From contig NZ_CP121274.1 of assembly GCF_029639405.1 (NCBI RefSeq), positions 3,720,001-3,784,000 of the forward strand: DNA of 64,000 bases. Reading direction: 5' to 3'. The position numbers and the translations under genes are program-made. Source of the stretch: Microbacterium proteolyticum. Lineage in GTDB: Bacteria; Actinomycetota; Actinomycetes; Actinomycetales; Microbacteriaceae. Below, piece by piece: positions 45,642 through 61,485 of the stretch; the stretch's first letter is position 1; each line of letters opens with the position of its first letter. The notes beneath the pieces were generated by a model. That model was not told the DNA's origin. It saw nothing but the letters and a program-made list of their open reading frames with translations, and did no database searches.

Positions 45642-45653
45642 GTGAAGGATCTG

Positions 45654-45752
45654 ATGTTCCGTTCTATGCCCTTCGTCCTCACCGCATTGGTGCTGCTCGC
45701 GGTACTCGCTGGTGCTGCGATCCTGTACTTCGCATTGGCGGTCCTCGCATGA
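45654..45752 (+). CDS. 32-residue single-pass membrane peptide (second copy)
   Basis: ATG at 45654 after GAAGGA; TGA at 45750-45752 overlaps the ATG of the M23 gene. The product starts MFRSMPFVLTALVLLAVLAG and continues as one hydrophobic helix. Length and junction type equal those of the peptide at 36445; sequence similarity is limited to composition and layout. A GTG at 45642 could add four residues. Confidence 0.58.
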   Translation: MFRSMPFVLTALVLLAVLAGAAILYFALAVLA

Positions 45753-46552
45753 TCGCGGATACCGCCGAGCACGACATAGCGCCAACCCGTCGCCGCATTC
45801 GTGAGCGCGCCGCCGCAGCGCAGCAGGCGGCGCACGCGGCGCGACGACAGTCGCGCGCAAGGTGGCTACGCCGTCGCGCGGTGGCTCTCGTGGCGATGGC
45901 CGCGGTGCCCGCGCTTGCCGTCCCGCTGTCGTTCCCGTCGCCGTCCCCGGCCGTGGCTCTCGCTGCCCAGCAGCCGGAGACGGTGAGCTCACAGCCGCAG
46001 TCGCTCACAGTCGGCGACCGCGTCGCGCCGGTGGTGCTGGACCGCGACGGCTTCTCCGCTAGCGTGCCGCTGCCCGATGGCGCGGAACCGTATGCGTTCA
46101 CTGCGGCCACCTTCGTGAACGATCCCGCCTCGCCGGTGCAGTGGCCGTTCACCACCGGGGTCCCGGTCAGTAGCCCGTTCGGCTATCGCATCCCGCCGTG
46201 CTCGTCGTGCTCGAGCTACCACAACGGGGTCGATCTGACCCCGGGGATGGGCACCTCGATCCAGGCGATGGCGGATGGAGTCGTGACGGTCGCGACCGAC
46301 GAGGGCGGCAGTTACGGCACCTATGTGGTGATCCAGCACGAGATCGACGGGCAGCTGGTCGAGAGCCTCTACGCACACCTGATCGAGGGCTCGATCGCGC
46401 TTGAGGTGGGGGAGCGGGTTCGGGTCGGGCAGCTGGTGGGTTTGGTGGGTAACACGGGCCTGAGCACAGGGGCGCATCTGCACTTCGAGGTGCGGCCCGA
46501 CGGCGAACCGGTCGATCCGTTCGTCTGGCTGCCGCCGAGGGTACGGTCGTGA
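45749..46552 (+). CDS. M23-family peptidase (exported)
   Basis: 267 residues. A basic N-terminus with one membrane/signal helix (AVALVAMAAVPALAVPLSF, about 50-70) precedes a LytM/M23 domain. PFGYRIPPCSSCSSYHNGVDLTPGMG supplies the first zinc ligands and STGAHLHFEVRPDG the last ones. The SCSSY cysteine pair in the ligand loop is common in actinobacterial M23 proteins. It is co-translated with the 32-residue peptide and lgt. Confidence 0.85.
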   Translation: MIADTAEHDIAPTRRRIRERAAAAQQAAHAARRQSRARWLRRRAVALVAMAAVPALAVPLSFPSPSPAVALAAQQPETVSSQPQSLTVGDRVAPVVLDRDGFSASVPLPDGAEPYAFTAATFVNDPASPVQWPFTTGVPVSSPFGYRIPPCSSCSSYHNGVDLTPGMGTSIQAMADGVVTVATDEGGSYGTYVVIQHEIDGQLVESLYAHLIEGSIALEVGERVRVGQLVGLVGNTGLSTGAHLHFEVRPDGEPVDPFVWLPPRVRS

Positions 46553-47439
46553 TGCCGCTCGACGTGCTGCCGGCCCTGATTCCGAGCCCGGACATCAGCT
46601 ACATCCAGCTCGGGCCGCTGCGAATCCACTTCTACGCCGTGTTCATCCTCACCGGCATCGTGCTCGCCGTCGTCATCGCGGCGCGGCGGCTGCAGCGCGC
46701 GGGGCATCCGCGTGGCGCGGTGCTGGATGTGGCGATGTGGGCGGTGCCGCTGGGCATCGTCGGCGCCCGCATCTATCATGTGCTCACCCATCCGGGCGAT
46801 TACTTCTATCCGGGCGCGGACCTGCTGCGGGTGCTCTACCTGTGGGAGGGCGGCCTGGCGATCTTCGGGGCCGTGCTCCTCGGCCTGGTCGGGATCATCA
46901 TCGGCACCCGCCGGGCCGGGATCCCGCTGCTGCTGTTCCTGGATGCGCTAGCCCCCGGCATGCTCGTCGCGCAGGCCGTCGGGCGGCTGGGCAACTACTT
47001 CAACCAGGAGCTGTTCGGTCCGCCCACCACGCTGCCGTGGGGGCTGCAGATCGACCCGGGCAGCCCCGCGATCCCGCCCGGCACCCCGGAGGGCACGCTG
47101 TTCCAGCCGCTGTTCCTGTACGAGCTGCTGTGGAATCTGCTCGGCGCCGCGGTGATCCTCATCGTCGAGCGCATCCGCCGCCTCGACGGGCACCCCGCAG
47201 CGGGGACCGGGCTGAGCCTGGGCCTCTACCTGCTGTGGTACGGGTTCGGGCGGGCCTTCCTGGAGTGGATCCGGCTGGACCCGACCGAGCTGCTGGCCGG
47301 CGGGATCAAGGCGAACATCGTCACCGCGGTGATCGCGGCCGTGCTCGGCGTCGGCGTCATCGTCTACGCCCAGTGGCGCACCCGACGGGCCGCGGCCGTA
47401 CCGGCCGGAAACGAGGCGGTGCATGCCGACGCCGAGTAG
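46549..47439 (+). CDS. lgt: prolipoprotein diacylglyceryl transferase
   Basis: 296 residues, seven membrane segments. The Lgt signature is AQAVGRLGNYFNQELFG with the GRxGNyxNqE box; IRIHFYAV and FLYELLWNLLG are also typical. It adds diacylglycerol to the lipobox Cys of prolipoproteins. Several lipoproteins (MCO, DUF305, propeller, TlpA) are encoded nearby, so it may support the island's own products alongside a chromosomal copy. Confidence 0.92.
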   Translation: MMPLDVLPALIPSPDISYIQLGPLRIHFYAVFILTGIVLAVVIAARRLQRAGHPRGAVLDVAMWAVPLGIVGARIYHVLTHPGDYFYPGADLLRVLYLWEGGLAIFGAVLLGLVGIIIGTRRAGIPLLLFLDALAPGMLVAQAVGRLGNYFNQELFGPPTTLPWGLQIDPGSPAIPPGTPEGTLFQPLFLYELLWNLLGAAVILIVERIRRLDGHPAAGTGLSLGLYLLWYGFGRAFLEWIRLDPTELLAGGIKANIVTAVIAAVLGVGVIVYAQWRTRRAAAVPAGNEAVHADAE

Positions 47440-49060
47440 CACACCCGAGACGGACACCACCTTGCCGGGCGACCATATCGACCGCGCGGGAGAGTCCCCG
47501 AGCGGCCCGCGCCTGGGCGTGGTCGGCTGGTTGCGGTGGGGGTGGCGGCAGCTGACCTCGATGCGCACCGCGCTGATCTTGCTGTTGCTGCTGGCTCTGG
47601 CGGCGATCCCGGGGTCGTTGATCCCACAGCGGTCCTCCGATCCCAACGGGGTCATCCAGTTCGACCGGAACAACCCCGGCTGGGCCTGGGCGGTGCAGCT
47701 GCTGCAGCTGCATGACGTGTTCGGGTCCGTATGGTTCTCCGCCGTCTACCTGCTGCTGTTCGCCTCCCTCGTGGGGTGTCTCATCCCGCGCATCCGCCAC
47801 CACGCCCAGGCTCTGCTGGCACAGCCGCCGGCGACACCCCGCAACCTCCAGCGCCTGCCGGCGCACGACCGTCGCCGCGTGGACGGCCCGCCGGAAGATG
47901 TGCTGCGCGCCGCGGAGAAGGAGCTGCGCCGCCAGCACTACCGGCTCCGCAGGCTCGACGCGGGCGGGGAGTGTTCGATCGCCGCCGAACGCGGCTACCT
48001 GCGCGAGACCGGGAACCTGCTGTTCCACCTCGCCCTGCTCGCGGTGCTCGTCGTCCTTGCGGTCGGCACCGGCTACCGCTTCACCGGGCAGCGCATCCTC
48101 GTCGAGGGGCAGACCTTCGCCAGCACGCGGATCGCATACGACTCCTTCACCCCTGGCCGGTTCGTGACCGACGCGCAGATCCCGCAGTTCACCCTCACCC
48201 TGGACCGGTTCCGCGTCGACTACGTCGAGGACAATCTCAACGCGCTGGGCATGCCGCGCGACTTCGACGCCCAGGTCACCGTCACCGCAGACGGCACGCA
48301 GCAGTCCTCGAGCATCCGGGTGAACGAGCCGCTGTCGGTAGCCGGCACCGACATCTACCTGCTCGGCAACGGCTACGCCCCGACCCTCACCGTCCGCAAC
48401 CCGGCCGGCGACGTCGTCTTCAGCGACTCGATCCCGTTCCTCCCGCAAGACGCCAACCTCACCAGCCTCGGCGTCGTGAAGGTCCCTGACGGGCTGGCGA
48501 AGCAGGTCGGGATGATCGCCCTGTTCTACCCGACCCGCGCGATCGCGCCCGGAGGCGCCTCCTACTCCAGCTACCCCGACCTGCTCGACCCGGTCGTCAC
48601 CCTGGACGTGTATGTCGGCAACCTGGGACTGGACAGCGGTGTTCCCGTGTCGGTCTACTCGCTCGACACCTCCGCGATGACCCAGGTCGCCGGCCGCGGC
48701 ACCGCGACCCCGGCCCTCGAGCTCACGCCCGGCACCACCGCCCCGCTGCCGGACGGGCTGGGCACGATCGAGCTCACCAACATCCCGCGATTCGCGTCGC
48801 TGGACATCGCCCACGACCCGACCCAGGCGCCCACCCTGATCGCCGCGTCCGCCGCGGTCGCCGGCCTGGCCCTCTCGCTGTTCGTGCCCCGGCGGCGCAT
48901 CTGGGTGCGCGTCGCCGCCCGCGGCGACCAGACGCAGCTCGAGGTCGCCGCGCTCGCCCGCGGCGACGACCCCCGCCTGCAGTCCACTGTCGACGCCCTC
49001 GCCGCCCGCCTTGAAACCGCGCCCCGACCACCCGGAGGATCCGATGACCCCGTTCCTTGA
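47423..49060 (+). CDS. resB: cytochrome c biogenesis protein ResB
   Basis: 545 residues. Membrane helices at about 47-67, 103-122, 203-220 and 480-500 flank a large external domain; SMRTALILLLLLALAAIPGSLIPQ is the characteristic first helix, and RETGNLLFHLALLAVLVVLAVG the third. It works with CcsA in System II heme delivery to apocytochrome c. The ATG overlaps the lgt end by 17 bases. Confidence 0.92.
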   Translation: MPTPSSTPETDTTLPGDHIDRAGESPSGPRLGVVGWLRWGWRQLTSMRTALILLLLLALAAIPGSLIPQRSSDPNGVIQFDRNNPGWAWAVQLLQLHDVFGSVWFSAVYLLLFASLVGCLIPRIRHHAQALLAQPPATPRNLQRLPAHDRRRVDGPPEDVLRAAEKELRRQHYRLRRLDAGGECSIAAERGYLRETGNLLFHLALLAVLVVLAVGTGYRFTGQRILVEGQTFASTRIAYDSFTPGRFVTDAQIPQFTLTLDRFRVDYVEDNLNALGMPRDFDAQVTVTADGTQQSSSIRVNEPLSVAGTDIYLLGNGYAPTLTVRNPAGDVVFSDSIPFLPQDANLTSLGVVKVPDGLAKQVGMIALFYPTRAIAPGGASYSSYPDLLDPVVTLDVYVGNLGLDSGVPVSVYSLDTSAMTQVAGRGTATPALELTPGTTAPLPDGLGTIELTNIPRFASLDIAHDPTQAPTLIAASAAVAGLALSLFVPRRRIWVRVAARGDQTQLEVAALARGDDPRLQSTVDALAARLETAPRPPGGSDDPVP

Positions 49061-50009
49061 CGCCCTGTCCCTGCTGCTGGTGTACTCGGCGATCGCCGTC
49101 TACGCGGCCGGCTTCATCGCCTACACCCTCGACCTCGCCCGACGCACCGCCCCGCGCCCCACGTCGGCGCCGGCCAAGGAACGGGTCCTCGCCGGGCCAG
49201 CCACGATGCCTCCTGCACCGCCCGGGGCCACGGAGCCCACGACGGAGCCGGCACCCGGCAGGTCGAAAGCGATCCGGGTCGGCTACGCGCTGACCGTGCT
49301 CGGCTGGGTGCTCCACGTCGCGGCCACGGTGCTGCGCGGCATCGCCGCCGAACGGGTGCCCTGGGCCAACATGTTCGAGTTCTCCCTGACCGGCACGGCG
49401 CTGATCATCGGCACCTTCCTGGCCGTGTCCATCCGGGGTCGCCTCGCGTTCCTGGGGACCGCGGTCCTCGGACTGACCGTGCTGCTGCTGGGCGTGGCGA
49501 CGGTGAGCTTCTACGTGCCCGTGGTGCCGCTGATGCCCGCACTGCAGTCCGGGTGGCTGGTGATCCACGTCCTGGTCGCGCTGCTGGCCACCGCGTTCTT
49601 CGGCCTGGCGTTCCTGGTCAGCATCACCTATCTGCTCAAGTCCCGCCGCCATCCCGAGCAGACGACTCGGCTGCAGCGTCTCCTGGAGGCCACCCCGTCG
49701 GCCGAGGACCTCGACCGCCTCGCCTACCGGCTGACCATCGTCGGCTTCATCCTGTGGACCTTCACCCTCATCGCCGGCGCGATCTGGGCCGGGCGCGCCT
49801 GGGGCCGGTTCTGGGGGTGGGACGTGAAAGAGGTCTGGACCTTCATCATCTGGGTCCTCTACGCCGCCTACCTCCACGCGATGGCCACCCGCGGCTGGCA
49901 CGGCCGCCGCGCCGCCGGGCTGTGCATCACCGGCTTCGCCGCCGTGCTGTTCAACTTCGGCGTCGTCAACGTCTTCTTCACCGGCCTGCACTCCTACTCC
50001 GGCCTCTGA
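49044..50009 (+). CDS. ccsA: cytochrome c biogenesis protein CcsA/CcsB (heme handling)
   Basis: 321 residues, about eight helices. The tryptophan-rich heme-binding signature is WGRFWGWDVKEVWTFIIW, with conserved histidines in LHVAATVLRG, VIHVLVALL and AAYLHAMATRGWHG. CGGAGG precedes the ATG at 49044, which overlaps the resB 3' end. Together with ResB it exports heme and attaches it to cytochrome c. Confidence 0.92.
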   Translation: MTPFLDALSLLLVYSAIAVYAAGFIAYTLDLARRTAPRPTSAPAKERVLAGPATMPPAPPGATEPTTEPAPGRSKAIRVGYALTVLGWVLHVAATVLRGIAAERVPWANMFEFSLTGTALIIGTFLAVSIRGRLAFLGTAVLGLTVLLLGVATVSFYVPVVPLMPALQSGWLVIHVLVALLATAFFGLAFLVSITYLLKSRRHPEQTTRLQRLLEATPSAEDLDRLAYRLTIVGFILWTFTLIAGAIWAGRAWGRFWGWDVKEVWTFIIWVLYAAYLHAMATRGWHGRRAAGLCITGFAAVLFNFGVVNVFFTGLHSYSGL

Positions 50010-50035
50010 CCACACTCCCGAAAGGACCGCACCCC

Positions 50036-50305
50036 ATGACAAGAAAGACCACCCCGCGCCCGAACAAGCCCGACGACTTCGAGGCCCGCTGGCGCAAGCA
50101 CCGCCTCCTCGTCCGCCTCGGCCAGGTCCTGATCGGCGCCGGCGCGCTCGTCGCGATCATCCACTGGCTCGCCCACCTCGAAGCGTTCGGACCCGGCCAA
50201 CCACCCGGCTGGCTCGACCTCGCCGCCGGCTACCCGACCGGGCTCGTCCTCGTCATCGCCGGCGCCATCCTCGCCGGGCGCAAGCGCCCCACCGCCAAGT
50301 CCTAG
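50036..50305 (+). CDS. small two-helix membrane protein of the ccm cluster
   Basis: 89 residues with GAAAGGA upstream. Helices LLVRLGQVLIGAGALVAIIHWLAHL and GLVLVIAGAILAGRK; a hydrophilic N-terminus KPDDFEARWRKHR. Function unknown; the gene is regularly spaced inside the cytochrome c maturation cluster. Confidence 0.6.
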   Translation: MTRKTTPRPNKPDDFEARWRKHRLLVRLGQVLIGAGALVAIIHWLAHLEAFGPGQPPGWLDLAAGYPTGLVLVIAGAILAGRKRPTAKS

Positions 50306-50343
50306 ACCACCGGCTCACCACCGCTGCCTGAAAGCCCATAGCC

Positions 50344-50973
50344 ATGCCCCCGAAACCCGACTCCGCCCACCCGCGCCGACGCTGGATCGCGGCACCAGTC
50401 GGTGGCAGCCTCGCCGCACTGCTCCTGCTGGCCGGATGCGCCGCCCAGCCGCCCGACATCACCCTCCCGCAGACCCCGAACGGGTACACCTCAGCCGACG
50501 ACACGGTCGTGGAGATCCCCGCCGCCGAGCGCGACGCCCCGGTGACCTTCGGCGGTCCGCTGGACACCGGCGGCCAAGCCGACTCCACCGACTGGCTCGG
50601 CTCGGTCGTCGTCGTCAACTTCTGGTACGCCGCCTGCCCACCCTGCCGCGCCGAAGCCCCCGACCTTCAGGCGACATATGAGCAGTACGCCGACCAGGGC
50701 GTCGTGTTCATCGGCGTGAACGTGCGCGACACCGGCGCGACCGCGACCGCGTTCGCCACCGAGTTCGACATCACCTACCCGTCGATCCTGGACGCCGCGA
50801 CCAGCGACGTGCAGTTCGCGTTCGCCGGCAAGTCCGCCCCGAACGCCGTGCCCACCACGATCGTCCTCGACCGTGACGGACGGATGGCCTCCCGAATCCT
50901 CGGCCGCATCCCCTCCCGAGGCACCCTCGCCGCCCTCATCGACACCGCCTTGACCGAGAGCCGCACCCCGTGA
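50344..50973 (+). CDS. TlpA/ResA-type thiol-disulfide oxidoreductase lipoprotein
   Basis: 209 residues. Lipobox LLLAGC (C32) after a Tat-neutral signal. A thioredoxin fold with active site WYAACPPCRAE (C98, C101), VVFIGVNVRDTG and the cis-Pro segment AVPTTIVLDRDG. It would reduce apocytochrome c cysteines outside the membrane, using electrons delivered by CcdA, whose gene overlaps it. Confidence 0.9.
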   Translation: MPPKPDSAHPRRRWIAAPVGGSLAALLLLAGCAAQPPDITLPQTPNGYTSADDTVVEIPAAERDAPVTFGGPLDTGGQADSTDWLGSVVVVNFWYAACPPCRAEAPDLQATYEQYADQGVVFIGVNVRDTGATATAFATEFDITYPSILDAATSDVQFAFAGKSAPNAVPTTIVLDRDGRMASRILGRIPSRGTLAALIDTALTESRTP

Positions 50974-51347
50974 ACGGCATCGTCGCCAACGGCGAACTCT
51001 GGCTCGCGATGCCGATCGCGTTGCTGGCCGGCCTCGTCTCCTTCGCCTCGCCCTGCGTGCTCCCGCTCGTACCCGGCTACCTCGGCTACGTCACCGGCGC
51101 ATCCACCACCCGCTCCCGCTGGAGACCCCTGATCGGGGCCGGCCTGTTCACCCTCGGGTTCTCGCTCGTGTTCATCGCCTACGGCGTCGCCTTCGGCGCC
51201 GTGGGCAGCTGGCTGATCCGCTGGCAGGACATCCTCATCCGCATCCTCGGCGCCGTCGTCCTCATCATGGGGCTGGTGTTCATCGGCCTGCTGCGCGTCT
51301 TCCAGCGCACCGCGAAACCCGCCATCAAACCCCCTACCGGCCTGGTC
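50970..51347 (+). pseudogene. ccdA: ccdA, 5' half (interrupted by an IS21-family element)
   Basis: The GTG overlaps the tlpA stop. The first 126 codons encode the CcdA N-terminal half: LAGLVSFASPCVLPLVPGYLGYVTG with the first redox Cys, then helices to IKPPTGLV. The frame then runs into the transposon and stops at 51380. The missing part resumes after 55921; joining at the 6-bp duplication restores [11 protein letters not shown] in frame. The protein normally carries electrons across the membrane to TlpA/ResA, so this copy should be inactive. Confidence 0.92.
51342..51347 (+). repeat. target site duplication, left copy
   Basis: CTGGTC directly before the left terminal repeat; an identical copy follows the right terminal repeat. 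Confidence 0.88.
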
Positions 51348-51383
51348 TGGCTCTGTCAGTCTGTTTTGGCCCCGGAGTGACGG
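51348..51383 (+). repeat. left terminal inverted repeat of the IS21-mer element
   Basis: Begins TGGCTCTGTCAGTC and includes TTTTGGCCCCGG; pairs with 55886-55921 at 30 of 36 positions. Confidence 0.85.
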
Positions 51384-51498
51384 CTAGGAGTGGCCCCACT
51401 TTCTGACTTGCCGGGGCGGTTCTGACGGTTTGATCTGGCCCCACCTGAGCGTGTGTTTCGTGTTGCTTCAGGATGAGCGGGCCCGGCAGGGGTCGAAA

Positions 51499-53157
51499 GT
51501 GGAATTGTTCGCGGATATCCGCCGTGCCTCGCGCGTCGACGGGCTATCGGTGCGCGCGTTGGCAGACAGGTTCGGGGTCCACCGTCGCACGGTGCGGCAG
51601 GCCTTGGCGTCGCCAATTCCGCCGCCGCGGAAGATACCGTCACGGATGTCTCCACGGCTGGGGCCGTACAAGGCGGTGATCGACGCGATGCTCACTCAGG
51701 ATCTGGACGCGCCTCGTAAGCAGCGGCACACGGCGACAAGGGTTCTCGCGCGGCTGGTCGACGAGCACGAAGCGGCGGGACTGTCGTACTCGACGGTCCG
51801 CGACTACGTGCGCGTACGTCGTGCCCAGATCGATGCCGCAGCCGGGCGCCGCGTCGAGGTGTTCGTCCCACAGGAACACGCACCTGGTGAGGAAGCCGAA
51901 GTCGATTTCGGCGAGGTCTGGGTGATCCTTGGCGGGGTGAAAACGAAGTGCCACATGTTCACGTTCCGGCTCTCGCACTCGGGGAAGGCGGTGCACCGGG
52001 TGTACTCGACGCAATCGCAGGAAGCGTTCCTGGAAGGACATATCGACGCGTTCGACGAGATAGGTGGGATCCCGACCCGGCACATCCGGTACGACAATCT
52101 CACTGCCGCGGTACAGACGGTGCTGTATGGGAAGGGCCGTAGCCGAGTAGAGAACGACCGATGGGTACTGTTCCGCTCGCACTACGGGTTCGACTCGTTC
52201 TATTGCCAGCCCGGAATCGACGGCGCCCACGAGAAGGGTGGCGTCGAAGGCGAAGTTGGTCGGTTTCGCCGCACCTGGCTGTCGCCGATGCCGGTCATCG
52301 ACTCGCTCGCCGAGTTGAACGAGCAGATCCGCCGGTGGGACGCCCGCGACAACGAGCGACGCATCAACACCCGGATCCGCACTGTCGGGCAAGACTTCAT
52401 CGACGAACAAGCCCGCCTTACGCCATTGCCAGGCGAGCGGTTCGATCCTGGCCTGGTGCTCTACCCGCGGGTAGACCGCTCGAGCCTGATCACCGTGCGG
52501 ATGGCGAGGTACTCCGTGCCCGCCCGTCTGATCGGGCGGAAGGTGCGGGTCTCGTTGCGGGCGTCTGAACTCGTGGTGTTCGACGGCCACGCCGAGGTCG
52601 CTCGGCACGAGCGGGTCGTGGCCCGCGGCGGGGAGTCGATCAACCTTGACCACTACCTCGAGGTCCTCAGGCGCAAGCCCGGCGCGTTGCCCGGGTCCAC
52701 CGCGCTGGCCCGTGCACGCGAAGCCGGCGTGTTCACGACAGCGCATGACGCGTTCTGGCAGCAAGCGCGGAAGGTCGATGGCGACAGCGCCGGCACAAGG
52801 GCTCTGATCGATGTGCTCCTGCTCCACAGGACCATGCGAACCGTCGACGTGATCGCGGGGATCCGTGCCGCCCTCACGGTCGGGGCGGTGTCCGCCGACG
52901 TCGTCGCGGTCGAAGCCCGACTGCACGCCGCCGGGCCCGAGTCAGACCGTCATCGCGTTGAACAACCACGACGTGACGTGCAGCGAGTTGTCAGCCTGAC
53001 CCAGCGTCGCCTCATGGATCCGGCCGCGGTGATCGCCGGACTCCCAGCCGACCGGCGGCCACTGCCATCCGTCGCGCACTACGACGAACTCCTTAACCGA
53101 CGTTCCGAACCAGAACCGCCGGTCACCGATGAGAGAGAAGGAATCGCCGGATCATGA
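51499..53157 (+). CDS. istA: IS21-family transposase IstA
   Basis: 552 residues from the GTG at 51499 (CAGGGG six bases upstream), which aligns with the usual IstA start 'KVELFADIRRASR'; the frame is open further upstream to 51430, so a longer form is possible. HTH: LSVRALADRFGVHRRTVRQAL. DDE residues lie in EEAEVDFGEVWV, HIRYDNLTAAV and HEKGGVEGEVGRFRR. It overlaps istB by four bases, as is normal for IS21. Confidence 0.9.
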   Translation: MELFADIRRASRVDGLSVRALADRFGVHRRTVRQALASPIPPPRKIPSRMSPRLGPYKAVIDAMLTQDLDAPRKQRHTATRVLARLVDEHEAAGLSYSTVRDYVRVRRAQIDAAAGRRVEVFVPQEHAPGEEAEVDFGEVWVILGGVKTKCHMFTFRLSHSGKAVHRVYSTQSQEAFLEGHIDAFDEIGGIPTRHIRYDNLTAAVQTVLYGKGRSRVENDRWVLFRSHYGFDSFYCQPGIDGAHEKGGVEGEVGRFRRTWLSPMPVIDSLAELNEQIRRWDARDNERRINTRIRTVGQDFIDEQARLTPLPGERFDPGLVLYPRVDRSSLITVRMARYSVPARLIGRKVRVSLRASELVVFDGHAEVARHERVVARGGESINLDHYLEVLRRKPGALPGSTALARAREAGVFTTAHDAFWQQARKVDGDSAGTRALIDVLLLHRTMRTVDVIAGIRAALTVGAVSADVVAVEARLHAAGPESDRHRVEQPRRDVQRVVSLTQRRLMDPAAVIAGLPADRRPLPSVAHYDELLNRRSEPEPPVTDEREGIAGS

Positions 53158-53954
53158 GCAACCCCACGAATGTCACCACGATCCTGCGTCGGCAGCGCGG
53201 GCTGACCGAAGAAGCCGCCGCGGCCGCAGTTGACCAAGCCTGCCGCAGGCTCCGTTTACCCACCATGCGGGCGGTGATGCACGAAGCGATCACGGCCGCG
53301 GAACGTGAGCAGCTGACCTACCAAGGGTTCCTTGCCGAGCTCCTCCTCGCCGAGTGCGACGACCGGGACCGCCGGTCCGTTGTCCGCCGCGTGTCGGCAG
53401 CCGGGTTCCCGAGGAACAAGTGGCTCGGGGACTTCGATTTCGACGCGAATCCGAACGTCAACCCTGCAACGATCCATACGCTCGCGAACGGGGACTGGAT
53501 CCGCCGCGGCGATCCGCTGTGTCTGATCGGGGACTCCGGCACCGGGAAGTCGCATCTCCTCATCGGCCTCGGCACCGCCGCTGCAGAGAAGGGCTTCCGC
53601 GTCCGGTACACCCTGGCGACGAAGCTCGTGAACGAGCTCGTTGAAGCCGCCGACGAGAAACAACTCACCCGCACCATCAACCGGTACGGACGCGTTGACC
53701 TGCTCCTGATCGACGAGCTCGGCTACATGGAACTCGACCGACGCGGCGCCGAACTCCTGTTCCAGGTCCTCACAGAGCGGGAAGAGAAGAACTCCGTCGC
53801 GATCGCATCCAACGAGTCGTTCAGCGGGTGGACGAAGACCTTCACTGACCCGCGCCTGTGTGCGGCAATCGTCGACCGGCTCACGTTCAACGGCACCATC
53901 ATCGAAACCGGCACCACCTCGTACCGCCTCAACCACACCCGTCAGCGGCAGTAG
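53154..53954 (+). CDS. istB: IS21-family helper ATPase IstB
   Basis: 266 residues, AAA+ DnaC-like. Walker A LIGDSGTGKSHLL, Walker B LLLIDELGYMELDRRGAELLF, then SVAIASNESFSGWTKTF (sensor I region) and VDRLTFNGTIIETG. It assembles on target DNA and activates IstA. ATG overlaps the istA stop. Confidence 0.93.
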   Translation: MSNPTNVTTILRRQRGLTEEAAAAAVDQACRRLRLPTMRAVMHEAITAAEREQLTYQGFLAELLLAECDDRDRRSVVRRVSAAGFPRNKWLGDFDFDANPNVNPATIHTLANGDWIRRGDPLCLIGDSGTGKSHLLIGLGTAAAEKGFRVRYTLATKLVNELVEAADEKQLTRTINRYGRVDLLLIDELGYMELDRRGAELLFQVLTEREEKNSVAIASNESFSGWTKTFTDPRLCAAIVDRLTFNGTIIETGTTSYRLNHTRQRQ

Positions 53955-53968
53955 CGATCCGAAAGTCA

Positions 53969-54358
53969 TCAGAGGTAGCGGCAGATGGACTCCGGCGTGC
54001 AGGCTTCGGACGCCGTTGCCGTCGCGTGCGCCCGAAGCTCGACGATGCTCCCTCGTAGGGCGCGCAGCTGCTCGAGCTGCTCATCAATCTCCACGAGCCG
54101 GCGGTCAAGGAGATCCAGCACGTGAGCGCACGGCGAACCACCCGTGTCGCGAACATCGAGGATCTCCGCGGTCTGCGCAAGGGTGAGCCCCGCCGCGCGA
54201 GCCCGATCGATGAACTCGAGCCGCTGCACCGTCTCGTCACCATAGCTGCGGTACCCGGCCGGGGTGCGCTCCGGCGGTTGCAGCAGCCCGCGCTCCTCGT
54301 AGTACCGCAGCGTCGACGGTCTCGTCCTCGCCTTCTCCGCGAGTTCTCCGATCCGCAT
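53969..54358 (-). CDS. merR: MerR-family mercury-responsive regulator
   Basis: 129 residues. N-terminal winged helix MRIGELAEKARTRPSTLRYYEERGLL, a dimer helix, and cysteines C77, C120 and C126, close to the C82/C117/C126 Hg(II) site of MerR. GGAGG lies seven bases before the ATG. It is divergent from merA across an operator with the stretched spacer typical of MerR promoters, so it should repress without and activate with Hg(II). Confidence 0.88.
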   Translation of the reverse strand: MRIGELAEKARTRPSTLRYYEERGLLQPPERTPAGYRSYGDETVQRLEFIDRARAAGLTLAQTAEILDVRDTGGSPCAHVLDLLDRRLVEIDEQLEQLRALRGSIVELRAHATATASEACTPESICRYL

Positions 54359-54379
54359 CGTGACACCTCCACCGTCAGT

Positions 54380-54411
54380 TTGACCTTCAAGCATGCTTGA
54401 AGGTCCATTCT
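54380..54411 (+). promoter_or_regulatory. merA promoter with perfect MerR operator
   Basis: A perfect 24-bp palindrome (54382-54405, half-site GACCTTCAAGCA) sits between -35 TTGACC (54380-54385) and a -10-like CATTCT (54406-54411), leaving about 20 bp between the hexamers, longer than the 17 bp optimum. This is the MerR activation geometry. Confidence 0.78.
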
Positions 54412-54457
54412 GTCGCATAGGGCCGCACGTGCGGCCCGGTCCACCCGAGGAGGCATC

Positions 54458-55834
54458 ATGACTCAGCACAACGAGTTCGATCTTGCGGTGGTCGGGACGG
54501 GCGGCGCGGCGATGTCCGCGGCGATCCACGCCCGACTCGAGGGGGCGAGCGTGGTCGCCATCGAATCGGGCACGCTCGGTGGCACCTGCGTGAACGTGGG
54601 TTGCGTGCCCTCCAAGACACTCCTCGCGGCCGCGCACACCCGCCACGCCGCGCTCACGAACCCGTTCCCCGGCGCCGCCACCTCCGCTGGGGCCGTCGAC
54701 CTCGGCGCGCTCGTGCAGCAGAAGGATGAGCTGGTCGGCATGCTCCGCCAGACCAAGTACGCCGACATCGCCGCCGCCTACGGGTTCGACATCCTCCCCG
54801 GCACCGCAACATTCACCGATCCCTCAACACTGCTCGTCGATGGACGACCGGTTCGCGCCAAGTCGTATCTCATCGCCACCGGCGCCGAACCGACCATCCC
54901 AACGATCCCCGGCCTCGAGCAGATCGATTACCTCACGTCGACCACGGCGATGGAACTCACCGAGCTGCCCGCTTCGCTCGTGGTGATCGGCGGCGGATTC
55001 GTCGGCCTCGAACAGGCCCAGCTGTTCGCCCGGCTCGGGGTCGAGGTCACCATCATCGGCCGGCTCGCCCCGCACGCCGAACCAGAACTCTCCTCCGAGC
55101 TCCGCAAAGCCTTCCTGACCGACGGAATCACCGTCATAGGCGACCGCGCCGCAACGATCACCCCACACGACGACCTGGTCCGAGTCCTCACCCGCACCGG
55201 GAAAGTAGCTACCGGTGAACGCGTCCTCGTCGCCACCGGCCGCACCCCCCGCACCGACGGGCTCGGCCTCGCCACTGCGGGCATCGCGACCGACACCCGC
55301 GGCTTCATCATTGTCGACGAACAACAGCGGACCACGAACCCGGCGGTGTTCGCCGCCGGCGACGTCACCGACGTGCCCCAGTACGTGTACGTCGCCGCGA
55401 GGACCGGGAAGATCGCCGCACACAACGCCCTCGGTCACTCTGAGCAGGTCGACTACACCGGGTTGCCCTCCGTCCTGTTCACCTCACCCCAACTCGCCTC
55501 GGCCGGGATCACCGAAGCCGAAGCCATCGCCGCCGGATACAGATGCGCCTGCCGATACCTGCGACTGGCCGACGTGCCCAGAGCCATCGCCAACCACAAC
55601 ACCCGCGGCGGCATCAAGATCGTCGCCGACGCCGACACCGGCAAAGTCCTCGGAGTCCACGCCCTCGCCGACACCGCCGGCGAGATGATGCTCGCCGCGA
55701 CCTACGCCATCAAAGCCGGATTCACCGTCACCCAACTCGCCGACACCTGGGCCCCGTACCTCACCATGGCCGAAGGCATCCGCCTCACTGCGAACCTCTT
55801 CCGCAACGAACTCCCCACTTCCTGCTGCGCCTGA
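54458..55834 (+). CDS. merA: mercuric reductase
   Basis: 458 residues; no N-terminal HMA domain. FAD-binding VVGTGGAAMSAAIHA, redox pair C44/C49 in GGTCVNVGCVPSK, NAD(P)-binding VIGGGFVGLEQAQLFARLG, VFAAGDVTD, dimer domain VLGVHALADTAGEM, and the C-terminal adjacent cysteines C456-C457 (PTSCCA) that hand Hg(II) to the active site. It reduces Hg(II) to volatile Hg(0) with NADPH. No merT/merP transporter or merB is in the element. Confidence 0.94.
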   Translation: MTQHNEFDLAVVGTGGAAMSAAIHARLEGASVVAIESGTLGGTCVNVGCVPSKTLLAAAHTRHAALTNPFPGAATSAGAVDLGALVQQKDELVGMLRQTKYADIAAAYGFDILPGTATFTDPSTLLVDGRPVRAKSYLIATGAEPTIPTIPGLEQIDYLTSTTAMELTELPASLVVIGGGFVGLEQAQLFARLGVEVTIIGRLAPHAEPELSSELRKAFLTDGITVIGDRAATITPHDDLVRVLTRTGKVATGERVLVATGRTPRTDGLGLATAGIATDTRGFIIVDEQQRTTNPAVFAAGDVTDVPQYVYVAARTGKIAAHNALGHSEQVDYTGLPSVLFTSPQLASAGITEAEAIAAGYRCACRYLRLADVPRAIANHNTRGGIKIVADADTGKVLGVHALADTAGEMMLAATYAIKAGFTVTQLADTWAPYLTMAEGIRLTANLFRNELPTSCCA

Positions 55835-55885
55835 CAACAGACAGCCACCCACATCGACCCGCCGCCACGACGGGGCCACTTCAAA

Positions 55886-55921
55886 CCGTCACCCCGGGGC
55901 CAAATCAGGTTGACAAAGTCA
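55886..55921 (-). repeat. right terminal inverted repeat of the IS21-mer element
   Basis: Read inward it begins TGACTTTGTCAACC and contains ATTTGGCCCCGG; partner of 51348-51383. Confidence 0.85.
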
Positions 55922-55927
55922 CTGGTC
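55922..55927 (+). repeat. target site duplication, right copy
   Basis: CTGGTC, identical to 51342-51347. Confidence 0.88.
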
Positions 55928-56272
55928 GGCGCGCCGCTGCTCGGCATCGCCTTCGGCCTCGGCTGGACCCCCTGCCTCGGCCCCACCCTCGCCGCGATCT
56001 CCGCACTCAGCATCAGCACCGCATCCGCCGCCCGCGGAGCACTCCTGGCCGTCATCTACTGCATCGGCCTCGGTCTGCCGTTCCTCGCCGTCGCCGCCGG
56101 CCTCGGATGGGCAACCACCGCCACCGGGTTCCTTCGCCGACACATCCGCGCCATCAACATCGCCGGCGGAACCGCCATGATCCTCACCGGCATCCTCATG
56201 ATCACCGGACTCTGGACAATGCTGATCTACTCACTCCAAACCCTCATCGGCGGAACGCTCCTGCCGATCTGA
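55928..56272 (+). pseudogene. ccdA: ccdA, 3' half
   Basis: Encodes [28 protein letters not shown], with the second redox Cys of CcdA in GWTPC, and three further helices to GGTLLPI. The frame extends back to a TTG at 55910 inside the transposon end, but the first native codons are those of the duplicated CTGGTC. Joined to the 5' half it gives a CcdA of about 240 residues. Confidence 0.92.
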
Positions 56273-56310
56273 GGATCGCGGCTTAGGTTGCATTTGCGTC
56301 CACGGACGAG

Positions 56311-56339
56311 CGAGGTTCCCGGAGGGTTGGCTAACCTCG
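56311..56339. terminator. hairpin between convergent ccdA and methyltransferase genes
   Basis: CGAGGTT (56311-56317) pairs with AACCTCG (56333-56339) over 15 bases in the 108-bp gap where the two genes converge, so it could end transcripts from either side. Confidence 0.4.
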
Positions 56340-56380
56340 AAGGAGATCCCGGATTTCATGCGAAGAGGAACTGGTTTCGC

Positions 56381-57496
56381 CTAAGTGTCAGGATTCCACT
56401 GAAGAACATGAAGGGCTCGGACCGCCTGGCGAGGTAGAACGCCGTTGCCGAGCGCGGTGAGCTGTTCGCTGCTGCTCAGCTCGAGGTCGGGGTCGGTGAG
56501 CCAGCCGTCTGGCAGGCCCATGAGCCATTCCACGAAGCGCGGCGCGGGACGGAGCTGACCGTCATGGTTCAGCACCGCCGGAGCTGGGGCGGGTCGTCCG
56601 CTGAGGTGTTCCCATCGTCGGATGGCTCCGGCGTAGTGTCCCCATCGTCGAACAGCTGCTCGATCAGCGGCCACAGTCCGACCGGCTCCTGGCCTCGCCT
56701 GCGTCGGGGGCCATTCTGCGCCAGGTCGATGATCTGATGCGAGAGGGCGATCGTGCCGCGTCGGGCTCGCACCTGTTCCAGCGTCTCCCCACCGCGGGCG
56801 ACGTCCGAGGCTAGCGGGGTGCGGAACAGCGCGCCGAGCGAGGATGAAGATCCGAAATCGGGTGTGTGGTGCGCCGACGTGGGAAGCGGGTAGGCCAACC
56901 CAGCGAGCGTCGTACCGGAGGTCGGCCAGATCGCCGAGTACGGCTCCAAGTGCCCGTAGAGGTCGGGCTGGTGCGTCTCCCAGATCCCACGGGTCGGGTT
57001 CCATTGCGCGAAGGGCAGCCCGTGTCGCGGGGGTTGCGCGTTCGAGGACTGCGGAGAGGGGGTTGCGTTCATCGTGGTCGTCCTGCGGGTCGGGGCGGCG
57101 TGCGGTGGCGGAGAGCAGGCCGCGGACGTTCTCGGCGACGACCCACTCGGGTTGCAGCACGTCGATCGCCGCCGCCATCTGCGCCCACAGGCCCGAGCGG
57201 GTGCCCGGTGCGAGGCCGGCTCGCTTGCCGACCGTGGAGACGTCCTGGCAGGGGAACCCGCCGCAAATCACGTCGACCGGCGCGACCTGCCGCCAGTCGA
57301 CCTGCGTGATGTCGCCAAGGTTGGGGATAGCGGGCCAGTGATGCGCGAACACGCGGGCCGGGGCGGGGTTGAGCTCGGAGAACCAGGCCGTGCGTCCGCC
57401 GAGGACGTGCTCGACGGCGAGGTCGAGGCCGCCGTAGCCGGAGAACAGCGATCCGATCCGCAGCGGGGCGGCCGGGGCGGGGGCTGAGTCGGGCAT
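56381..57496 (-). CDS. C5-cytosine DNA methyltransferase
   Basis: 371 residues from the ATG at 57494-57496 (AGGAA upstream). Motif I IGSLFSGYGGLDLAV, motif IV GGFPCQDVS (catalytic C83), motif VI VVAENVRGL (122-127), motif VIII HTRFRIFILARR and motif X QLTALGNGVLPRQAVRAL are all present. The variable middle is Arg/Pro-rich and holds the target-recognition region. A 167-codon open frame lies nested in it. On a conjugative element such an enzyme may protect incoming DNA from host restriction; no partner restriction enzyme is visible. Confidence 0.92.
   Translation of the reverse strand: MPDSAPAPAAPLRIGSLFSGYGGLDLAVEHVLGGRTAWFSELNPAPARVFAHHWPAIPNLGDITQVDWRQVAPVDVICGGFPCQDVSTVGKRAGLAPGTRSGLWAQMAAAIDVLQPEWVVAENVRGLLSATARRPDPQDDHDERNPLSAVLERATPATRAALRAMEPDPWDLGDAPARPLRALGAVLGDLADLRYDARWVGLPASHVGAPHTRFRIFILARRAVPHPASLGRRPRWGDAGTGASPTRHDRPLASDHRPGAEWPPTQARPGAGRTVAADRAAVRRWGHYAGAIRRWEHLSGRPAPAPAVLNHDGQLRPAPRFVEWLMGLPDGWLTDPDLELSSSEQLTALGNGVLPRQAVRALHVLQWNPDT
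56569..57072 (-). CDS. nested overlapping reading frame inside the methyltransferase gene
   Basis: 167 residues on the same strand, in a different frame from the methyltransferase and fully within it. Its translation looks protein-like rather than random: GLPFAQWNPTRGIWE, YSAIWPTSGTTLAGLAYPLPTSA, ARGGETLEQVRARRGTIALSHQIIDL and GLWPLIEQLFDDGDTTPEPSDDGN. WPTSG/PLPTS segments are known to me from proteins encoded next to, or within, phage C5 methylases. ATG start; the ribosome site is unclear. The alternatives are real dual coding, or a frameshifted piece of the methylase target-recognition domain. Confidence 0.45.
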   Translation of the reverse strand: MNATPSPQSSNAQPPRHGLPFAQWNPTRGIWETHQPDLYGHLEPYSAIWPTSGTTLAGLAYPLPTSAHHTPDFGSSSSLGALFRTPLASDVARGGETLEQVRARRGTIALSHQIIDLAQNGPRRRRGQEPVGLWPLIEQLFDDGDTTPEPSDDGNTSADDPPQLRRC

Positions 57497-57710
57497 CGAG
57501 GTTCCTGTGCGGTCGGCGCGTCCCGGTTGAGGCACTCGCCGGGCTGGTCACCTTCCAGGTGCGCGCGACTCCCACAAGCTCCGCGGCTCCGCCCTCGTCT
57601 TCCCGGCGTCGATCGTTCGGCGCGGTGGCCTCGGATCGCGTTGCTGGGAGCACTGTTCGGCGCGGGCGGTCAGCCTGCCTTCGGTCGGCCCACGCCTCTT
57701 GCAGACGAGG

Positions 57711-57740
57711 TTCGGACCCGGCGCGAGCGCCGGGTCCGAA
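57711..57740. other. perfect 13-bp inverted repeat, candidate oriT hairpin
   Basis: TTCGGACCCGGCG (57711-57723), loop CGAG, CGCCGGGTCCGAA (57728-57740), 29 bp before the relaxase ATG. MobF relaxases nick beside such hairpins, and oriT often lies next to the relaxase gene. It could instead be an attenuator of relaxase expression. The rest of the 273-bp gap (57497-57769) holds one GCGCACCT motif copy and no gene. Confidence 0.5.
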
Positions 57741-57769
57741 GGCGGTGGTCCCGTTCGCACCTGACGGGC

Positions 57770-60700
57770 ATGACGGTCTCGATGCGGGTGATGAGCGCGG
57801 GCGAGGGTTACAAGTACCTGCTCAAGACGGTCGCCGCGGGCGACGGGAACCGTGCCTTGTCGACCCCGCTGACGCGGTACTACCTCGAGGAGGGAACCCC
57901 GCCCGGTCGTTGGATGGGCAGCGGCGTGCCTTCGCTTGGCGGCGGCAGGATTGTTTCTGGCGATCAGGTCTCCGAGGTTCAACTTCAGCTGCTCGTCGGC
58001 ATGGGCCGTGATCCGGTCACGGGCGATCCGCTCGGCCGCGCCTACCAGGACTTCTCGACTGCTGCCGTTCGTGTCGAGGCGCGGATCGCATCGCTGGACC
58101 CGAGCCTGGGCCTGGTCGCTCGGGCGGAGGCGATCGCGCAGATCGAGGCCGAGGAAGCTGCGCGCGGGACGCGGCGCGCGGTCGCCGGGTTCGACTTCAC
58201 GTTCTCGATCCCGAAGGCTGCATCCGTCGTGTGGGCGGTTGCGGACGCCGGCACGCAGGCGATCATCGCCGACGCGCACCATGCGGCCGTTGCGGAGGTG
58301 GTTGCGTTCATGGAGCGGGAGATTGCGGCCACGCGCGTCGGCGCAGCCGGACGCGACGGCGCCGTTGCACAGGTCGGCGTCGGTGGACTCATCGCAACCG
58401 CGTTCGATCACTACGACAGCAGGGCCGGCGACCCCCACTTGCACACGCACGTCGTGATCTCGAACAAGGTGCAGACGTTGCTCGACGGCAAGTGGCGGTC
58501 GCTGGACGGGCGGCCCCTGCACGCGGCGGTCGTCGCCCTGTCGGAGCTGCACGAGGCGGTGTTCGCCGACCATCTCACCCGCGTTCTCGGCGTCGAGTGG
58601 GAGGCGCGATCTCGTGGCCGGGACCGGAACCCGGCTTGGGCGATCACGACCGTCCCGGAGTCGCTGATCGCCCTGTTCTCCAGCCGGTCACGGCACATCG
58701 ACGAGGAAGCCGACCGGCTGATCGAGCGGTACATCGCCGAGCACGGGCGGCGTCCGTCGCCGGCGACGATCGTGAAGCTGCGCGCGCAGGCGACGTTGAC
58801 GACGAGACCGGACAAGCAGGTGCAGTCCCTCGCGGCGCTGACGGCGCAATGGCGTCGTCGTGCGAGCGCGACCCTGGGCGAGGACGCGACCGAGTGGGCG
58901 CGCCGGATCACCGACGCCTCGTCGCCGCCGCTGTTGCGCGCCGACGACATTCCCCTAGACGTGATACGCGAGCTCGGGCAGAGGGTGGTCGAGGTCGTCG
59001 GCGAGAAGCGGGCGACGTGGCGACGGTGGAACCTCTACGCGGAGGCCGCGCGGCAGACGATGGGCTGGCGGTTCGCCAGCACGACCGATCGCGACGCGAT
59101 CGTCGGCATGGTCGCCGATGCCGCCGAGGCGGGGTCGCTGCGGCTGACCCCGCCGGAGCTGGCGAGCAGTCCGGCGATCTTCCGACGCTCGGACGGGACG
59201 AGCGCGTTCCGTCCGAAGCACGCCACGGTCTACTCCTCCGAGCAGCTCCTCGCGGCCGAGGATCGGCTGCTCGAACGGTCCCGGATGCTGACCGCGCCCA
59301 CGCTCGACCTCGCCCAGCTCGAGCGCGTCACCCGCAGGCCCGACCGTCGTGGTCTCGTGCTCGGCGACGACCAGGCCGCCGCCTTGGCGACGGTCGCGGT
59401 CTCCGGTCGCGTCCTCGACGTGCTGGTCGGCCCGGCCGGCGCCGGGAAGACGACGGCCATGAGCGCCCTGCGGCGGGCCTGGGAGATGCAGCATGGGCAC
59501 GGATCGGTGGTGGGATTGGCGCCGTCCGCGGCGGCGGCGCAGGTGCTCGGCGACGACCTTGGGATCGTCACCGAGAACACGGCGAAGTGGTGGCAAGACC
59601 ACCTCGTGCGTGGCACGACGTTCGCAGCCGGGCAGCTGGTCATCATCGACGAGGCATCCCTCGCCGGGACACTCACGCTGGATCGGATCACCGCGCTCGT
59701 GGCACAGGCCGGCGCGAAAGCACTGCTGGTGGGCGACTGGGCTCAGTTGCAGTCCGTAGACGCCGGCGGGGCGTTCTCGATGCTCGTCCACGACCGGGAC
59801 GACGCCCCCGAGCTGGTCGACATCCACCGCTTCACGCACCGCTGGGAGAAGGCGGCGTCCCTTGGGCTGCGCCACGGCGACGCCTCCGTGATCGACGAGT
59901 ACGACGCCCACGGTCGCGTCCACGACGGCGACACTGACGCCATGACGGACGCCGCCTACACCGGCTGGCGCGGCGACATGCTCGCCGGGCGCGAGTCGGT
60001 GCTGATCGCGGAGACCCACGAGTCGGTCTCCGCGCTGAACCAGCGAGCACGCGCGGACCTGATCCTCGACGGCGCCGTGACGCCGCTGCGCGGCTCGGTC
60101 CAGCTGCACGACGGCACCCTCGCATCACCGGGCGATGCCGTCATCTCCCGCCACAACGACCGGCGCTTGCGGGCCGGGCGCGGCTGGGTCCGCAACGGCG
60201 ACCGCTGGACGATGACCGCCGTGCGCAGCGATGGCTCGGTCACCGTCCGCCGCGCCGGCCGACGCCGCGGCGCGTCCCTGGTGCTGCCGGCCGGCTACGT
60301 CCGCGAACACCTCGATCTCGGCTATGCGGTCACGGCACACCGGGCGCAGGGACTCACCACCGACACCGCGCACGCCCTGATCGAGGCGACGACGACGCGG
60401 GAGAACCTGTACGTCGCGATGACGCGCGGACGCGACGCGAACCACGCCTACGTCGCCACCGGCCGACCGGACGGCGTGCATGCCGGCCCGCATCCCGGCG
60501 ACAACACCGCGGCGAGCGCACGCACGGTGCTGTTCGGCGTCGTGCAGCACTCCGGCGCCGAGCTCTCCGCGCACGAGACGGTCACCTCCGAGCAGGAGGC
60601 ATGGTCGTCCATCCGGCAGATCGCGGCGGAGTACGACACGATCGCCACCGCCGCGCAGCAGGATCGCTGGGTCGCCCTGATCCGCGCCAGCGGCCTCACC

Positions 60701-61330
60701 GAACGCGAGGCCGAGGACGCCATCGCCTCCGACGCCTTCGGCGCGCTCGCCGCCGAGCTGCGCTACGCCGAGGCCAACCATCACGACGTCGCTACCCTGC
60801 TGCCACGGCTGGTCGCCTCCCGCAGCCTCCACGACGCCCAGGACGTCGCGGCGGTCCTGCACGCGCGCCTGTCCGCCGTGACATCCAGGCCAGCCGGCGC
60901 GGGCCGCGCCCGCCGTGCGCCACGACTGATCGCCGGGCTCATCCCCGAGGCGGCCGGGCGGATGGACGCGCAGATGCGGCGCGCGCTCGATGAGCGCCGA
61001 CAGCTCATCGAGGACCGCGCCCAGGCGCTCGCCCGCGCCGCCCTGGCCGAGCACCGGGCCTGGGTCGGGCACCTCGGGCAGCCGCCGGCCCGGCCGGCGC
61101 CGCGCGCCCGATGGTGGCAGGCGGCCGCCACCATCGCCGCCTACCGGGATCGGTACGAGGTCACGGCGGACACTCCGCTCGGGCCGGCCCCCGACGCGGC
61201 CGCACAGCGACTCGACGCCGCACGGGCGCGCGCCGCTCTGGAGCGTGCCCGCACGCTCGCCGACACGGGCGAGCGCGACACTTGGACACCGCCGGACCCT
61301 CGCGCCGAGCGCACCGGACCCGGCCTGTGA
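57770..61330 (+). CDS. MobF-family relaxase with RecD-like helicase (TraA)
   Basis: 1186 residues. TrwC relaxase domain at the N-terminus: tyrosines Y14/Y16 in GEGYKYLLKT, FDFTFSIPKAASVVW, and the metal-binding HLHTH (H223, H225, H227). The helicase part has Walker A GPAGAGKTT (554-562), VIIDEASLAG, GDWAQLQSV and the UvrD-like TAHRAQGLTTD and VAMTRGRDANHAYV motifs. The C-terminal 250 residues are helical. It nicks oriT, stays covalently bound to the 5' end and unwinds the strand for transfer. Confidence 0.95.
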   Translation: MTVSMRVMSAGEGYKYLLKTVAAGDGNRALSTPLTRYYLEEGTPPGRWMGSGVPSLGGGRIVSGDQVSEVQLQLLVGMGRDPVTGDPLGRAYQDFSTAAVRVEARIASLDPSLGLVARAEAIAQIEAEEAARGTRRAVAGFDFTFSIPKAASVVWAVADAGTQAIIADAHHAAVAEVVAFMEREIAATRVGAAGRDGAVAQVGVGGLIATAFDHYDSRAGDPHLHTHVVISNKVQTLLDGKWRSLDGRPLHAAVVALSELHEAVFADHLTRVLGVEWEARSRGRDRNPAWAITTVPESLIALFSSRSRHIDEEADRLIERYIAEHGRRPSPATIVKLRAQATLTTRPDKQVQSLAALTAQWRRRASATLGEDATEWARRITDASSPPLLRADDIPLDVIRELGQRVVEVVGEKRATWRRWNLYAEAARQTMGWRFASTTDRDAIVGMVADAAEAGSLRLTPPELASSPAIFRRSDGTSAFRPKHATVYSSEQLLAAEDRLLERSRMLTAPTLDLAQLERVTRRPDRRGLVLGDDQAAALATVAVSGRVLDVLVGPAGAGKTTAMSALRRAWEMQHGHGSVVGLAPSAAAAQVLGDDLGIVTENTAKWWQDHLVRGTTFAAGQLVIIDEASLAGTLTLDRITALVAQAGAKALLVGDWAQLQSVDAGGAFSMLVHDRDDAPELVDIHRFTHRWEKAASLGLRHGDASVIDEYDAHGRVHDGDTDAMTDAAYTGWRGDMLAGRESVLIAETHESVSALNQRARADLILDGAVTPLRGSVQLHDGTLASPGDAVISRHNDRRLRAGRGWVRNGDRWTMTAVRSDGSVTVRRAGRRRGASLVLPAGYVREHLDLGYAVTAHRAQGLTTDTAHALIEATTTRENLYVAMTRGRDANHAYVATGRPDGVHAGPHPGDNTAASARTVLFGVVQHSGAELSAHETVTSEQEAWSSIRQIAAEYDTIATAAQQDRWVALIRASGLTEREAEDAIASDAFGALAAELRYAEANHHDVATLLPRLVASRSLHDAQDVAAVLHARLSAVTSRPAGAGRARRAPRLIAGLIPEAAGRMDAQMRRALDERRQLIEDRAQALARAALAEHRAWVGHLGQPPARPAPRARWWQAAATIAAYRDRYEVTADTPLGPAPDAAAQRLDAARARAALERARTLADTGERDTWTPPDPRAERTGPGL

Positions 61331-61444
61331 TCGGCAATGCGCTTCCGATGTCGCACCTGTCGGCGTATTCTGCCTGCAGGCAGTTCCTTTCGGCGCCGTC
61401 GCTTGTCGCGAAGGCATGACCGCACCGTCAGCCGGCCGGTCCTT

Positions 61445-61470: not shown

Positions 61471-61485
61471 GAGAGGACCGCCCTC

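Follow-up and report, generated by a model that had tools for sequence, protein, structure and literature searches.

The 64,000-bp window analysed here (Microbacterium proteolyticum contig NZ_CP121274.1, positions 3,720,001 to 3,784,000) contained, at 51348–55921, a single 4574-bp unit with the gene order istA-istB-merR-merA. Judged from its sequence and from copies elsewhere, we hold it highly probable that this element is a genuine unit transposon built on an IS21 core, with the mercury (mer) genes as internal passengers, and that it inserted cleanly in ccdA. The features of the element and its target were as follows (aa, amino acids).

50970–51347, forward strand: 5′ part of the interrupted gene ccdA, ending with the first CTGGTC copy (open reading frame; uninterrupted relatives L151 and L152)
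51342–51347, no strand: left copy of the target-site duplication, CTGGTC (read in the sequence)
51348–51397, forward strand: left terminal inverted repeat, of which the outer 36 bp (51348–51383) match the right end at 30/36 positions
51423–51442, forward strand: second, inner left repeat (TGACGGTTTGATCTGGCCCC), pairing with the right end
51463–53157, forward strand: istA, DDE transposase, 564 aa (NF033546, 252.5 bits, cut-off 160)
53154–53954, forward strand: istB, AAA+ helper ATPase, 266 aa (NF038214, 254.7 bits, cut-off 200; PF01695)
53969–54358, reverse strand: merR, MerR-family metal-responsive regulator, 129 aa, with cysteines 77, 120 and 126 (PF13411, PF09278)
54382–54405, no strand: perfect 24-bp palindrome GACCTTCAAGCATGCTTGAAGGTC, overlapping TTGACC (54380–54385; read in the sequence)
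54458–55834, forward strand: merA, mercury(II) reductase, 458 aa (TIGR02053, 517.4 bits, cut-off 454.45)
55872–55921, reverse strand: right terminal inverted repeat, with CA at the terminus (repeat comparison)
55922–55927, no strand: right copy of the target-site duplication, CTGGTC (read in the sequence)
55928–56272, forward strand: 3′ part of ccdA (alignment to uninterrupted ccdA genes)

The outer 36 bp of both ends matched as inverted repeats at 30 of 36 positions, and the terminal repeat extended to 50 bp with 82% matches. The inner left repeat resembled the multiple terminal repeats of IS21, whose target-site duplications range from 4 to 8 bp. A degenerate pattern of the ends (up to three mismatches) matched nothing in the 64-kb window but the two element ends, shuffled sequence being expected to give 0 matches, and a scan for TG-starting ends with at least 21/36 matches found no third IS21 end inside the element. 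The 4574-bp length, the 36-bp ends with 30 matches, the CTGGTC duplication and the four genes, all named in the original prediction made from the letters alone, were thus confirmed in the sequence; a second IS21 end between istB and merR, which that prediction named as a result that would refute it, was looked for and not found. Because merR and merA lie inside the ends, where a strict insertion sequence (IS) has transposition genes only, the element is a transposon, or transporter insertion sequence (tIS), built on IS21 and not a plain IS. It contained one istAB and no third end, unlike a composite transposon with two flanking IS copies; the other istAB copies of the genome lay outside it (on contig C1 and at C2:5 and C2:2262120). 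Nor did it belong to Tn5053/Tn402, since there was room for four genes only and the transposase and helper passed IS21 models.

When the ccdA flanks were joined with one CTGGTC, a single open frame of 723 bp (240 aa) was obtained, and uninterrupted counterparts of this gene were found by searching 398 genomes of the family. The joined gene aligned without gaps to ccdA of L151 (genome G041; 97.4% over 723 bp) and of L152 (genome G361; 95.6% over 721 bp), indicating that the insertion was clean and that the uninterrupted state occurs naturally. Both the restored frame and the empty site in related islands had been anticipated, and both were borne out. In G361 a 92% variant of the transposon was located 6.5 kb beyond its own intact ccdA. 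The island around the insertion (43348–62921) was 99.94% identical over the entire 19.6 kb fetched from Compostimonas suwonensis (NZ_PGFB01000005), ccdA insertion included, suggesting that the island crossed genera already carrying the insertion or that both strains acquired it from one source. The prediction had also read a cost into the loss of ccdA; this was not refuted, but it was left unsupported, because other CcdA homologues (51–52% identity) exist in the genome, on the chromosome and on contig C1, and the C. suwonensis island is near-identical with the interruption in place. The island also encoded a TrwC-type relaxase (57527–61330) and a C-5 cytosine methylase (56381–57535). A comparison of the ccs-resA-ccdA flank with plasmids gave two short ccsB matches only.

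Copies of the same unit were found at other sites, as the prediction had proposed to check. In PLSDB, 42 records matched the element and three covered at least 80% of it: a Cnuibacter physcomitrellae plasmid with the element end to end (99.9%), and two Paenarthrobacter plasmids with the element at 99.4–99.6% and an IS5 near its right end. Among the 398 family genomes, full-length matches besides that of the window were obtained in G026, G060 and G075 (99–100%) and in G361, G276 and G032 (92%); no further full-length copy was found at E 1e-80 in samples of the order (396 genomes) and the class (394), which overlapped each other and that of the family. A pattern scan of the genome contigs gave 25 stretches. 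In all, seven distinct sites with perfect 6-bp duplications were recognised, the window's included, and the units there, which are related by descent, were 99–100% identical or of the 92% variant. The sites were CTGGTC (the window and C. suwonensis, identical site), GACTCG (both Paenarthrobacter plasmids), CACGGT (Micrococcales 72-143 and Agromyces mediolanus, identical site), ACTATG (a Cryobacterium metagenome-assembled genome and Microbacterium BWSM_13, identical site), ATCGTT (Microbacterium 5K110), CGGCTG (L066/L055, read across split contigs) and CGCAGA (L048/L052, likewise read across split contigs, the element itself being unassembled there). Passengers and transposase thus shared ends and moved together at seven duplication sites, and two copies were without a duplication.

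The predicted IstA aligned with the solved IstA of IS5376 (8q4d, E 3.1e-21); its start was set as annotated for the element copy in NZ_CP127116. The istB start overlapped the istA stop, the directly downstream position typical of IstB in IS21. The 1.97 kb from istB to the outer end held merR and merA. MerA retained cysteines 44/49 and the C-terminal pair 456/457 and was without the N-terminal NmerA domain, and its closest solved structures were the mercuric reductases 5x1y and 1zk7. The 24-bp palindrome between the divergent merR and merA probably serves as the MerR operator and as part of the merA promoter. No merT or merP was present in the element: the gaps of 14 bp (istB-merR), 99 bp (merR-merA) and about 37 bp (merA to right repeat) cannot accommodate them, and their absence had been correctly predicted.

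In the mechanism that we propose, IstA and IstB would recognise the two outer inverted repeats and move everything between them, leaving a 6-bp target duplication at each jump; since the whole interval is moved, merR and merA would travel with each jump. The slot occupied by the mer pair, from istB to the right end, holds other genes in related actinobacterial IS21. Acting at the palindrome, MerR probably controls the divergent merA promoter; reduction of Hg(II) to Hg(0) is the probable role of MerA. From these features we infer that the element may still transpose and that mercury would induce the passengers and be resisted through them. A plausible route for the first capture would be through two neighbouring IS21 copies, with the core of the second lost and nothing but its right end remaining past the enclosed genes.

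Sequence comparison showed that core and cargo diverged together under purifying selection. Between variant A (the window) and variant B (L044), nucleotide identities were 94.3% (istA), 92.6% (istB), 91.5% (merR) and 89.2% (merA), synonymous divergences (dS) were 0.19, 0.32, 0.26 and 0.32, and omega values were 0.09, 0.03, 0.14 and 0.17, respectively. The mer part was slightly more diverged than the core, and no sharp step occurred at the istB-merR border. That istB and the mer genes had similar dS points to a mer-bearing ancestor older than the split of the two variants. A recent replacement of cargo between variants A and B was considered and rejected, given the gradual divergence and the similar dS of istB, merR and merA.

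Related IS21 elements were then compared for what lies between istB and the right end. Thirty further istAB loci were fetched, picked from the best DNA matches to the window element, and inverted ends were paired around each. Ends were examined at 38 loci; a swap test used 32 of these, leaving out L013, L045, L057, L137, L044 and L009 as interrupted or partial loci or as copies of the mer element already represented by the window. With ends of at least 19/30 matches and a duplication of at least 5 bp required, and left and right sides taken from different loci as the control, ends with duplication were found at 12/32 native loci versus 19/992 swaps. The right end lay 657–4657 bp after istB in 11 of the 12 duplication-supported elements (window included) and 107 bp after it in the remaining short one, L131. 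The prediction had regarded cargo as unusual for IS21; for this group of IS21 that view has to be corrected, as 11 of the 12 carry it. Cargo was read by reading frame and Pfam/NCBIfam at loci with established ends, which set aside L108, L109, L111, L116–L118, L120–L122, L126, L129, L130, L132, L135 and L137, and was as follows.

L112: GNAT
L113 (own genome): GntR regulator and a membrane-looking protein without Pfam match
L114: FtsX-type ABC transporter
L115: PRA-PH domain protein and methyltransferase
L119: matrixin-like protease
L124: MscL
L128: MerA and MerR
L133: MerR, MerA, MerB, a sub-threshold MerE match, redoxin and an annotated CcdA
L134: no Pfam match
L136: DF-family protein, just under the NCBIfam cut-off

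In Microbacterium flavum (L045), where the right end alone was covered, a cation-efflux gene followed istB ahead of that end. The istAB cores of L124 (MscL) and L128 (mer) shared 79%, and their cargo had no similarity; for L127 and L128 the shared figure was 83%. Secreted or lipoprotein-like genes lay in the slots of L134, L100 and L127, the last with two that resemble each other; neither L100 nor L127 had a duplication at its ends.

Two further mercury-bearing IS21 types were recognised, type 2 (4.9 kb, as in L128) and type 3 (7.2 kb). Full-length type 2 copies at 99.9% occurred in Paenarthrobacter YJN-D, on two plasmids of Arthrobacter ZXY-2 and in Pseudarthrobacter Sphe3, with 5-bp duplications GACGG (YJN-D), CCTCC (pZXY21), GGCGG (Sphe3) and TCCCT (G477); the copy on pZXY22 had no exact duplication. 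Type 3 (L133:1467–8649, also L142, L143 and L144) was found on Rhodococcus and Mycobacterium plasmids with duplications of 6–7 bp: AGCGAG in Rhodococcus fascians, TACTCA in Mycobacterium dioxanotrophicus, CGAGAA in G1061 and the 7-bp ACATGAG in Rhodococcus NJ-530, where integrase genes were inserted. L123 had the cargo of type 3 and no duplication. This cargo comprised merR, merA, merB, a small membrane protein (the sub-threshold MerE match), redoxin and ccdA, the last annotated so in the Rhodococcus copy and without a Pfam or NCBIfam match in L133. In the window type merR adjoins istB and merA the right end, whereas types 2 and 3 have merR beside the right end and merA transcribed in the direction of istB.

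The window MerA was 48–50% identical to those of L128, L123 and L133, and a midpoint-rooted MerA tree (17 hand-chosen rows) split the window group from the L128/L123/L133 group with full support. In an IstB tree (33 rows, also chosen by hand), L128 grouped with elements bearing MscL or unknown cargo in a separate clade supported at 97/90, and L133, L123 and L122 formed a clade (100/99) within a supported nine-row clade (95/96) that also contained the window type. With 89/76, the fork parting these three from the window type was weak, and types 1 and 3 cannot be told apart by IstB alone. It is likely from these comparisons that many actinobacterial IS21 are cargo transposons and not plain IS, that a fixed slot from istB to the right end has repeatedly received genes of unrelated kinds (mercury operons, MscL, cation efflux, ABC transporters, acetyltransferases and proteases), and that mercury genes entered it at least twice independently. 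The regulators of the three mercury types (window 53969–54358, L128:4992–5381 and L133:1577–1960) had a common cysteine pattern, PC.HV early and C.....C.YL at the terminus, and none of the three passed the MerR-specific cut-off.

Actinobacterial merR-merA pairs without istAB were also found. Those of L096–L099 and L105 had the divergent arrangement of the window's, with MerA 80–88% identical; no istA or istB match was obtained at E 1e-8 within the roughly 8 kb of flank fetched either way (2.4 kb in one direction for L105), and no IS21-like end above 23/36 was found. At L098 the pair was accompanied by an istB tail of about 40 bp, and at L104 by a remnant of the right end, istAB being absent. 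Both fragments may have arisen by decay of full copies or may instead inform on the capture. The L104 stretch (7001–8931) adjoined a relaxase gene 72% related to that of the window, and a stretch there was 79% similar to part of the window cytosine methylase gene. On the side of type 3, merA-merR pairs about 74–82% similar to its mer part occurred on plasmids of Corynebacterium, Micrococcus, Cellulosimicrobium, Nocardioides and Arthrobacter, where only the mer part of the query was matched.

These pairs, which can evidently also persist alone, are one of several observations that weigh against a mobile mercury unit. The Cnuibacter plasmid copy was without a duplication (GACTGA/GACGAC), copies L047, L049 and L062 were cut or without the left part, and the copy in G075 was a mosaic of both variants with unlike flanks. 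The window merR passed no metal-specific NCBIfam cut-off (86.5 bits against 150.85 for TIGR02051; the Zn and Cd/Pb models scored slightly higher, all below their cut-offs), and 20 of the 32 related istAB loci gave no ends with duplication. The G075 mosaic (L016/L101) was mostly variant A; its variant B patches fell at the right end and at the 3′ termini of istB and of merA. The right flank of this copy was that of the ACTATG site, and the mosaic may be a product of recombination or a chimera of metagenome assembly.

Three other explanations were weighed against this evidence. The pairs without istAB would suit a plain IS21 that landed beside resident merRA, the apparent outer end being a chance or leftover repeat, as would a plain, 76% related IS21 on a Leifsonia plasmid (L012), which ends 54 bp after istB without an exact duplication. 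A relative ending after istB with mer outside was named in the original prediction as a result that would count against it; L012 ends so, yet the 10.5 kb fetched there showed no mer gene, by annotation or by search. With the whole unit flanked by perfect duplications at seven sites, a gapless empty ccdA site that has neither istAB nor merRA, and no inner end found in the element, this explanation is close to refuted and hardly credible. The remnants at L104 and L098 would also fit a composite transposon that carried merRA between its two IS21 copies, one of which has since shrunk to its right end, leaving a structure now frozen and unable to move as a unit. Such a history may describe the origin of the element; as its present state it is very improbable, since a single-core unit at several sites is not a frozen remnant, a second istAB is absent and merA stops only some 37 bp short of the right repeat. 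With one core and no third end found, a present-day composite transposon was rejected. Somewhat less remote, and still unlikely, is that the unit is mobile while its mercury genes are non-functional passengers in the present host. The sub-threshold merR and the lack of merT and merP speak for this; against it, MerA passes the equivalog cut-off with both its cysteine pairs, and omega between the variants was low for merA (0.17) and merR (0.14). The unit transposon with internal mer passengers is therefore the preferred reading.

IS21 has served as a model for AAA+-regulated transposition and has been treated as an IS with its own genes only. With its family (IS21, IS5376, ISMyo2) the element had in common the istA-istB overlap, the AAA+ helper, multiple terminal repeats with TG...CA termini and a short target duplication. 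It differed in having merR and merA between istB and the outer end, where the members described in the available text of PMC10122671 consist of two reading frames, istA and istB, between two repeats. IS elements are described in the accessible part of PMC11208146 as encoding transposition proteins only; tIS, with passenger genes, are described in general terms in those of PMC9330008, PMC3129680 and PMC7986276, and resemble the element in having one IS core with passengers inside its ends. In the portions available, the actinobacterial IS21 element ISMyo2 (2,387 bp) was reported without mention of cargo (PMC4608216), IS21 and mer genes were named separately and unlinked for Micrococcus luteus islands (PMC13189705), and PMC7371123, PMC11092175, PMC4444841, PMC3960245 and PMC11628540 contained nothing on IS21 cargo. 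No description of an IS21 mercury transposon was found in the partial texts searched, and a prior listing in ISfinder or TnPedia is possible.

The closest functional parallel is Tn5053/Tn402, where a DDE transposase and an AAA+ ATPase likewise move a mer operon as one unit. Those transposons have TniQ and a resolvase beside TniA/TniB, 25-bp ends and a 5-bp duplication, whereas the element had no tniQ or resolvase gene, IstA/IstB of the IS21 type, ends of 36–50 bp and a 6-bp duplication. If an actinobacterial branch of IS21 routinely carries swappable cargo with one core, annotation that stops at istB would leave part of the mobile gene set out, and an unnoticed vehicle would exist for mercury resistance in soil and plasmid actinobacteria. 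Near-identical units at varied sites, related cores with unrelated cargo, and merRA with end remnants offer a direct test of the capture step.

The genome of the window itself carried a second IS21, 74% related to the element (C1:30196, C2:2262120 and C2:5; L002–L005 and L113). Its copy on C1 had the duplication AGCACC and a GntR-type regulator and a membrane-like protein before the right end. On contig C1 (136,212 bp), istAB occurred twice, at 30196 and 98302, as did CcdA homologues, at 65970 and 134076, each pair exactly 68,106 bp apart, half the length of the contig; by these coordinates the contig looks like a doubled 68,106-bp plasmid.

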